Assembly: GCA_013416435.1 (NCBI GenBank)
Contig: JACCEN010000015.1
Location: 62,001-126,000, forward strand
DNA length: 64,000 nt
Origin: Alcaligenaceae bacterium
GTDB lineage: Bacteria > Pseudomonadota > Gammaproteobacteria > Burkholderiales > Burkholderiaceae_B
Reading direction: 5' to 3'
Position numbers and translations under genes: made by a program. The notes beneath the pieces are model-generated. The model worked only from the letters and a program-made list of their open reading frames with translations, was not told where the DNA came from and made no database searches. Shown one piece after another: positions 59,872 through 61,255 of the stretch. Numbering within the stretch: the stretch's first letter is position 1; the number at the start of each line of letters is the position of its first letter.

Positions 59872-60251
59872 GGTTGAACTCTTGAATTGTTGCGCTGCGG
59901 TAAATCAAGATACTGCGATGCCACTGCGCGCGCAATAAAAATAAATAGGGGTCAGACCCTATTTGTTTGGATGGATGTATTGTTCTTTTTTAAATGGGGA
60001 CAGATCTAATTTATTGAAACATGGAATAAATTTTTCTCGGTTTTGAATGCCAAAATTTGTTTGATCGGATTTTGCTCGGCGTTTTCAATTGAATTTCTGG
60101 GTTGAGGTAGTGGCTGACTTGTCGCTTTTTTGTTTTATGAGACAGTCACGTTGATACGCCGTTTGGCCAGCCGGGCACCTCCGAAAGTCGCCCTCAACCC
60201 CTATATGCCAAGCTGGCCTGCATCTGTTCCGAACGGACGGCCCAAAACCCT
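59872..60251. other. A/T-rich upstream region of gltB with decayed repeat halves, no gene
   Basis: No credible coding frame. Base composition is much richer in A/T than the flanks up to about 60130. It holds two unlike half-sites: an imperfect palindrome at 59943-59964 (AAATAGGGGTC... to CCTATTT) and, at 59992-60012, AAATGGGGACAGATC followed by TAATTT. Both combine an AAAT/ATTT edge with a GGGG core, and resemble RAYT-associated ends. The gltB promoter must lie in the left part, but I could not place it. Confidence 0.6.
59943..60012. repeat. Two half-sites related to the palindrome family
   Basis: 59943-59964 is an isolated arm (GGGGTCAGACCC) edged by AAATA and TATTT. 59992-60012 has GGGGACAGATC edged by AAAT and AATTT. 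They lie about 545 bases from the RAYT-like gene. Confidence 0.6.
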
Positions 60252-60281
60252 GGGGTCAGACCCCGTACGGGGTCTGACCCC
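60252..60281. repeat. Palindromic repeat downstream of the RAYT-like gene
   Basis: A perfect unit with centre GTAC, 275 bases beyond the stop of the RAYT-like gene and 29 bases from the separate multi-hairpin element. Confidence 0.93.
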
Positions 60282-60310
60282 AACAGCGTCTCAACCAGAG
60301 TTATTGTGAG

Positions 60311-60536
60311 GCCAGCCCTTGGCTGATGGGGTGAGGAGGGCGACTTCGGGCGCCGCCGGGCAAGGACGGGATGGCGGGGAGGCAAGGGCGCATCTGTTTG
60401 AACGCCCGTTTTCGGGCCACCGGCCCGGTGGGCGTGAGTTATGCGTCCGCCCCGACAGCGTGGCCTGGACCGGGCAGTCCCGCGCCAGCGGGACCGGTGC
60501 ACGGGAGCCCGACTACCCCACCAGCCAAGGGCTGGC
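60311..60536. repeat. 226-bp multi-hairpin element with 22-bp inverted ends
   Basis: The ends GCCAGCCCTTGGCTGATGGG (plus GT) at 60311-60332 and its complement at 60515-60536 pair at 21 of 22 positions. Inside lie further perfect hairpins: 60404-60417 (GCCCG-TTTT-CGGGC), 60417-60431 (CCACCG-GCC-CGGTGG) and 60478-60493 (TCCCGC-GCCA-GCGGGA). It begins 20 bases after the stop of the RAYT-like gene. It could be a non-autonomous IS200-like element or a structured RNA; a 119-codon frame crosses it but looks spurious. Confidence 0.75.
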
Positions 60537-60556
60537 CGTCTCAAGAAACCCAAAAC

Positions 60557-61255
60557 CTAACCCGACGCCTCTTCCCGCACCTTCCGCGGCCGCCCTCGCG
60601 GCGCCGGCGCCACGCGTCGACTGGCCCGGTTCGAAAGCTGGGCCAGGAAGTCCGCCTCGCCGACTGCCCACTGCCCGAACAGCGCCTTCTCGATCCGTAG
60701 CCCCTCCGCCCCCGACAGCCCCCGTGACAGCTTCTCGCGGTAATGCGCCTGACGTGCGAACGGCGTGTTGCCGCCGGCCCAGTAATCGTGATGGTCGGTC
60801 AAAATGGCGCTCACGGTCGCACCCGTGTGATCCCGCGCCGACGACCATGGCCAGATCTCGGGGCGATCGACATAATGCAGTTGCGACGGCAACGACTCCA
60901 GCCAGACCATGGTCGGCAGTACCCACGTGCCCGGTTCCACCAGTGCGCTCCGGTAGCGTCCCGCAAAGACCCGGCCTGGCGCCCCGGCCGACGCGATCCG
61001 CCTGCCCAGCGCCTGCACGAGTCGCGGCATGCTGCGCTCGTCGGGAGGTGTGGCGAGCAGGGTGATGCGGTCGTTGAGCAGCAGCCAGGCGTGCAACGAC
61101 ACCTTGTGTTCGCGGACTTCGCGCTCGAGCATGACCTTGAGCCCGTCCAGCTCGTCGGCCGGCGTCGGGTCGGAGGCGCGCGCCAGCGGATGTGCGAACC
61201 GCGCCTCCACCAACTGTGGAACGGACGGTGCGTAAAGGCGTGGCAGACGGGCCAT
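60557..61255 (-). CDS. RAYT-like (Y1 transposase family) protein lacking catalytic residues
   Basis: 232 residues from the ATG at 61253-61255 (MARLPRLYAPSVPQ, the usual Y1/RAYT start). Family landmarks: LHAWLLLN (55-61), LLATP (66-70), QALGRR (81-86), FAGRYRSALV (97-106), PWSSAR (136-141), LTDHHDYWAGGNTPF (152-166) and the C-terminal PRGRPRK. The HUH histidines are replaced (R63 and T65 where HVH is expected) and the catalytic tyrosine position is W118. The frame has no stop or shift, so it looks preserved without transposase activity. It might bind hairpin DNA or RNA; that is inference. Confidence 0.8.
   Translation of the reverse strand: MARLPRLYAPSVPQLVEARFAHPLARASDPTPADELDGLKVMLEREVREHKVSLHAWLLLNDRITLLATPPDERSMPRLVQALGRRIASAGAPGRVFAGRYRSALVEPGTWVLPTMVWLESLPSQLHYVDRPEIWPWSSARDHTGATVSAILTDHHDYWAGGNTPFARQAHYREKLSRGLSGAEGLRIEKALFGQWAVGEADFLAQLSNRASRRVAPAPRGRPRKVREEASG

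Follow-up and report, generated by a model that had tools for sequence, protein, structure and literature searches.

The window, a stretch of 64,000 nucleotides, carries a RAYT-derived gene without catalytic motifs (60557–61255, minus strand) and, just outside it, a segment rich in hairpins. The open reading frame of the gene ends at 60557, which leaves the gap of about 20 bases that an earlier note on this DNA had reported. The multi-hairpin element, termed module A, extends from outer arm to outer arm over 60310–60537 on the plus strand. Using a repeat search, inverted arms of 23 nt were found at 60310–60332 and 60515–60537 that are 96% complementary (22 of 23 positions pair). The inverted ends described earlier, 22 bp with 21 pairing positions, are real and were measured one base wider. 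Folded as single-stranded DNA, the segment reaches −82.6 kcal/mol compared to −56.5±3.7 kcal/mol for shuffled sequences (z = −7.1), and none of 200 shuffles attains its fold energy.

Several parts can be distinguished, of which those of module A and its tail are on the plus strand. The conserved core (60338–60512) is matched end to end by covariance model R1 (positions 1–173) with 138.6 bits, a score that is to be read knowing that the window copy itself belongs to the training set of R1. Within the core, the internal-loop strand CTGTTTGAA (60394–60402; consensus CTGTTTGAG) occupies invariant or nearly invariant columns of alignment A2 (29 copies). It is followed by the terminal hairpin CGGGCCACCGGCCCG (60413–60427), helix 5 of the consensus structure, and by a second internal-loop strand, TGAGTT (60435–60440; consensus CGAGTT), whose GAGTT is invariant in A2. 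The side hairpin GTCCCGC-GCCA-GCGGGAC (60477–60494) corresponds to consensus helices 6–7, in which 91–100% of the cells are paired. The perfect internal hairpins claimed before were thus seen at 60413–60427 and 60477–60494, together with the overlapping palindrome CCACCGGCCCGGTGG at 60417–60431. Right outside the 3' arm lies the tail CTCAAGAAAC (60540–60549); most of 91 copies have the corresponding motif, with the family consensus YTNAAGAAC, directly past their outer stem. On the other side, a perfect inverted repeat, the 30-bp palindrome GGGGTCAGACCCC-GTAC-GGGGTCTGACCCC (60251–60282), is preceded by what is left of a second element in inverted orientation, module B (approximately 60165–60250, minus strand).

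The element is repeated in its own genome. BLASTN with the segment found it at ten places, six of them near-full (the window copy and five with 86–92% identity) and the rest partial. The covariance model matched nine of ten candidates scored, i.e. at least nine copies are present. One of them is an intact composite of about 675 bp that comprises a left end (AATGGCACTACCTTAAG), inverted module B, a spacer, the 30-bp palindrome, a second spacer, module A, about 60 bp and a right end (CTTAAAGTAGTGCCATT). Window positions 60165–60556 align as one block with positions 253–646 of this composite (81% identical). Therefore, the palindrome at 60251–60282 and the inverted remnant upstream of it are parts of the same insertion. 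The view that the element is unrelated to the 30-bp palindromes holds for the sequences as such but not for this one palindrome, which lies in the spacer of the composite. Half-sites of GGGGTCAGACCCC palindromes also crowd the window, with 108 matches within one mismatch on both strands. The composite occurs in different states: e1 is complete, part of B is deleted in e2 and part of A in e3, and the remaining copies lack the ends. In the window copy, both outer ends are gone and module B is partly lost.

Copies e1 to e3 are bounded on both sides by the sequence xAATGGCAYTACYTTRAG with few mismatches. The IS4 subgroup is characterized by ends of the type -AATR--------WTW and direct repeats of 10–13 bp (PMC2266710). 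At e3 (C7:147634–148086), which is located at the end of an ORF, CCGATCAGCCCTG is found on either side and constitutes a perfect 13-bp duplication (13/13). Copies e1 and e2 sit between REP-like halves (GGGGTCAGACC), and their duplications are imperfect. Because both the ends and the duplication length fit the IS4 subgroup (PMC2266710), the composite of this genome was assigned as IS4-like, and the ends together with the one perfect duplication suggest that it may have been mobilised by an IS4-type transposase in this lineage. Neither the window copy nor 20 loci tested in other genomes carry IS4-like ends. Hence, these ends may have been acquired later, and they cannot account for the family as a whole. 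A search by end sequence in this genome, in the family and in viral contigs found no autonomous insertion sequence with such ends and returned MITEs, remnants or unrelated matches only. In another genus (genome G096), a 417-bp element (L387, approximately 808–1224) is bounded by the same ATGGCACTACCTTAAG ends and contains a long palindrome and the GGTGTC..GACACC repeats of that genome. In g9 genomes, an IS4-like end is flanked by REP-like halves. Solitary IS4-like ends beside REP palindromes (L076 1959, L077 2042, L078 1220, L079 1411) are probably remnants after deletion between repeats.

Outside this genome, the distribution is broad and patchy. BLASTN detected the element in 39 of 268 family genomes, with copies of the conserved core displaying 72–81% identity. 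The covariance model matched 83 of the 268, representing 26 of 43 genera. Since at most ten candidates per genome were scored in this family survey, copy numbers are lower bounds. None was found by the model in the largest genus, g2. Weak multi-copy relatives, some without the inner stem, are present in g8 and g9. Among 399 genomes of the order, 32 were matched with lower scores and the same loop strands. Named hosts include Parapusillimonas granuli, Pigmentiphaga, Pusillimonas, Allopusillimonas, Paralcaligenes and a Comamonadaceae MAG (L214). Pattern matches in records of Acinetobacter, Lachnospiraceae and Magasanikbacteria were rejected, as the model gave no match in the first two and a 22-bit partial match in the third. 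Carriage by phages or plasmids was likewise dismissed: The core motif was unmatched in viral contigs and the composite in plasmids. In other Burkholderiales families (L335, L340, L341, L343, L357), a second hairpin-forming sequence adjoins the element, e.g. TTACTTTCTCTTG..CAAGAGAAAGTAA.

Thirty-six copies, taken from the window genome and from relatives, share one fold architecture. The element measures about 230–290 bp and consists of nested helices. A long outer stem leads via an internal region to a long middle stem, from which a side hairpin branches off; further in lies an inner stem that contains CTGTTTGAG and CGAGTT as its two conserved loop strands and is capped by the terminal hairpin. 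The tail follows the outer stem. Stem sequences vary freely, and pairing and loops are retained. Outside the stems, CTGTTTGAG, GAGTT and GCAAG as well as the tail beyond the outer stem are conserved. RNAalifold applied to A2, which was aligned by sequence only, predicted 56 pairs, 47 of them with two-sided changes. In this alignment, 94.4% of the cells are paired compared to 70.4% in shuffled controls and 36–44% when the partners were slid, and 371 cells show two-sided changes versus 103.7±9.3 in shuffles. As RNAalifold obtained the structure from this very alignment and copies that are kin do not count as independent, it is the size of these contrasts that counts and not a p-value. Homologues with preserved pairing, which the earlier note had demanded as a test, were thus found with both BLASTN and the covariance model, so that its refuting case, no such homologue anywhere else, clearly fails.

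Several Pigmentiphaga loci are orthologous across species, which means that many of the copies are ancient and largely passed on by descent, a point against the mobile-element reading given below. Across six comparisons between orthologous copies whose flanks are 88–95% identical, 21 two-sided changes, 18 single changes that still allow pairing and no broken pair were counted. Three of the six share locus L230 and are not independent, and the absence of broken pairs is somewhat flattered by the pair choice of RNAalifold, which favours kept pairs. Fourteen of the 21 two-sided changes, again with no broken pair, derive from L226/L232, whose flanks are about 94% identical. Such concerted changes in both arms could result from selection for the fold, from correction by template switching or from conversion by another copy. 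They would also be expected if the repeats were passive DNA structures, i.e. inert long palindromes left by old insertions whose arms are corrected by template switching and which spread by recombination. At some tails, repeats of about 40 bp occur in tandem, which is suggestive of replication errors and points in the same direction. By contrast, arm correction cannot explain the conservation, across genera and families, of the loop strands, which are not part of the arms, and inert palindromes do not account for the recurrence of pairs at unrelated sites (see below). We therefore regard a purely passive origin as very improbable. Tandem repeats of approximately 37–43 bp that include the tail motif were observed at the element ends of L112, L113, L127, L257, L259, L260 and L261.

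The arrangement of neighbouring copies is highly regular. Among 21 pairs of adjacent copies found in 70 loci, 20 are in '−+' order (inverted, tails outward) and one is tandem; several of these pairs are duplicates, which reduces the independent cases to about a dozen. Genomes G211 and G210 contain whole pairs that reappear at unrelated loci (L247/L248/L249 and L244/L246), with unrelated flanks and a likeness confined to the region between the tails. The orthologous site next to the RAYT-like gene carries no element in the congener Parapusillimonas granuli. Inspection by eye gave no evidence of target duplications at the pairs of other genera. According to crude ORF calls in which pairs were counted twice, 29 of the 49 copies with ORFs on both sides have convergent neighbours and none has divergent ones, and of the 67 copies with a called neighbour, 56 have their tail side turned towards a stop codon.

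This orientation would also fit a structured noncoding RNA or a 3'-UTR element that is selected for its RNA fold, whose copies were duplicated and act at the 3' ends of genes, for example on mRNA stability or termination. The strong covariation and the conservation of the loops across genera speak for such a role as well. If pairing were constrained at the RNA level, G·U would be expected to persist and A·C would not. The first count on A2 appeared to agree, with 49 G·T and 13 A·C. When pairs were chosen in a strand-symmetric manner in 75 copies, this signal vanished (86 G·T versus 67 A·C, p = 0.15, not significant), and the asymmetry was discarded as a proof of RNA-level action. Rfam returned no match at the curated gathering threshold for the window and 13 further loci; a hit to MIR904 (40.6 bits versus a cut-off of 80) was rejected as a chance match to a long hairpin. 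Furthermore, the two-sided change at L226/L232 seems to be faster than stepwise compensation in an RNA, and multiple copies with a patchy distribution are typical of mobile DNA. Maintenance at the DNA level is slightly favoured over pairing at the RNA level, and selection for an RNA fold as the reason for the existence of the family seems rather unlikely.

The vicinity of the RAYT-like gene raised the question of whether the element is the cognate substrate of its product. RAYTs are thought to recognise and move REPs, and the protein encoded next to the element is a RAYT homologue that might bind the hairpins and move the element. The short gap of about 20 bp in the window would agree with this, as would L154, where the element again follows the RAYT-like gene, with a relative orientation as in the window. 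The neighbour is 26% identical to the intact RAYT of the genome, and its HVH is replaced by DRI and its YIELNP by WLESLP. None of 30 aligned homologues retains the HUH motif or the catalytic tyrosine. No Pfam family was found for the gene product, and its score with NCBIfam REP_Tyr_transpos is 12.6 bits (cut-off 80). Using nhmmer, the element was detected beside the RAYT-like gene at two of 30 loci (window and L154) and not at the other 28; a third, weak match at L146 (E 0.05) was unsupported by the covariance model. Of the 268 family genomes, 217 possess the gene itself, which is thus spread far beyond the element, whereas g4 genomes contain six to ten detected copies and no RAYT-like gene. 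Co-conservation with the gene, one of the options offered in the earlier note, is contradicted by these numbers.

A comparison with the intact RAYT points the same way. It comprises 204 aa with NHVHLL and YIELNPVRA (C7:166.6k; L161 1264–1878, minus strand) and is flanked on both sides by GGGGTCAGACCCC palindromes (L161 1236–1267 and 1968–1999), not by the element. A Y1 transposase above the Pfam cut-off is encoded in only eight of 40 element-bearing genomes and missing from 32, and the element was not found within the 13 Y1 loci searched. Of the characteristics of REPs and REPINs cognate to a RAYT, the inverted pairs are present. As for the others, the adjacent gene is not a catalytic RAYT (PF01797, HUH and tyrosine), the rayt gene is bordered by 30-bp palindromes instead of two inverted copies of the element, and a size of 230–290 bp with nine model matches contrasts with a short (about 20–40 bp) high-copy palindrome. 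Taken together with the empty site in the congener, it is extremely improbable that the element belongs to the RAYT-like lineage. It probably landed beside this gene by chance. The RAYT-derived gene (L131–L160; NDRITLL, WLESLP), which lies beside gltB in the window and in the congener, is likely a domesticated transposase, judged by its retention in most Alcaligenaceae despite the loss of the catalytic motifs. A recurrent hairpin-like motif (e.g. ATTAGGGACGCACCCTAATT; window approximately 59930–60010) is found downstream of it in many of L132–L160, between this gene and the next one, and is possibly a leader or terminator of gltB.

Repetition and preserved pairing elsewhere support the remaining option of the earlier note, a palindrome-type non-autonomous element. 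We consider it probable that the segment belongs, as a degenerate copy, to a family of non-autonomous, REPIN/MITE-like mobile DNA elements with a folded architecture; for this genome, we infer mobilisation in trans of the IS4 type. According to this proposal, an inverted pair with its tails outward can move as a whole, comparable to a large REPIN. Here, the pair, made up of module B and module A with the 30-bp palindrome between them, is enclosed by IS4-like ends, and an IS4-type transposase acting in trans may have put it into REP-like targets with duplications of about 13 bp. The folded strand might be recognised in this process, and copies may be tolerated because they are located at the 3' ends of genes. 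A more far-reaching idea, which we put forward as a doubtful one, is a class of mobile elements in which the multi-branched folded strand and not the sequence ends is the enzyme substrate: Stems would drift, loops and tail would be read, and inverted pairs would move without a RAYT or a known Y1 transposase.

If the preferred reading, a mobile REPIN/MITE-like family, is right, Burkholderiales hold a large family of structured mobile repeats, apparently without a name so far, that is REPIN-like without RAYTs. This raises the question of what moves and maintains it. The orthologous copies with concerted arms and no broken pair offer a natural test to separate selection for the fold from correction of palindromes by template switching. 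The RAYT relative without both catalytic motifs, as a candidate domesticated transposase kept in most Alcaligenaceae, merits a study of its own.

A full-text literature search for core strings found no description of the element, which is weak evidence of novelty. Among published repeats, BRE is a dispersed GC-rich repeat of Bordetella and Comamonadaceae with tandem units of 75–91 bp, located for instance next to lexA in Bordetella (PMC3110155), and resembles the present element in its composition, dispersal and hosts. An 82-bp tandem repeat beside lexA (L314 1310–1469) was taken as the published BRE by its place and period, not by the published sequence. It is a different sequence (R1 11.8 bits, E 1.7), and BRE was therefore rejected at this locus. 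Bor-2 from Bordetella bronchiseptica is 167 bp long, intergenic, present in 17 copies and predicted to be structured (PMC2267715). Its size and host order fit the present element, and by this likeness in description only it could be related to the family. YPAL, ERIC, NEMIS, Bcr1 and further families are stem-loop repeats of about 50–200 bp, described as mostly simple or double hairpins (PMC2267715). They share with the element a dispersed, mostly intergenic location and stem-loop folding, whereas the present element, set apart from them by description, is multi-branched and has freely varying stems across a bacterial order.

MITEs of the IS4 family and mobile insertion cassettes (PMC2266710) are similar in that the ends of the own-genome composite fit, a 13-bp duplication is found and insertion occurred near GGG-TCAGA-CCC-like sites. 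They differ in that no autonomous partner was found for the present element in the sequences searched, the ends are missing at the other tested loci and the internal modules are not recognisable as IS sequence. With REPINs and RAYT-associated REPs (PMC2817692, PMC3116915), the element shares its nature as a non-autonomous palindrome, the inverted pairs, the intergenic location at gene 3' ends and compensatory changes in the stems. In contrast to them, it lacks a GTAG-type head, flanks no RAYT and occurs mostly in hosts without a Y1 transposase. Moreover, it is several-fold larger, multi-branched and far less abundant, and its loops are conserved.
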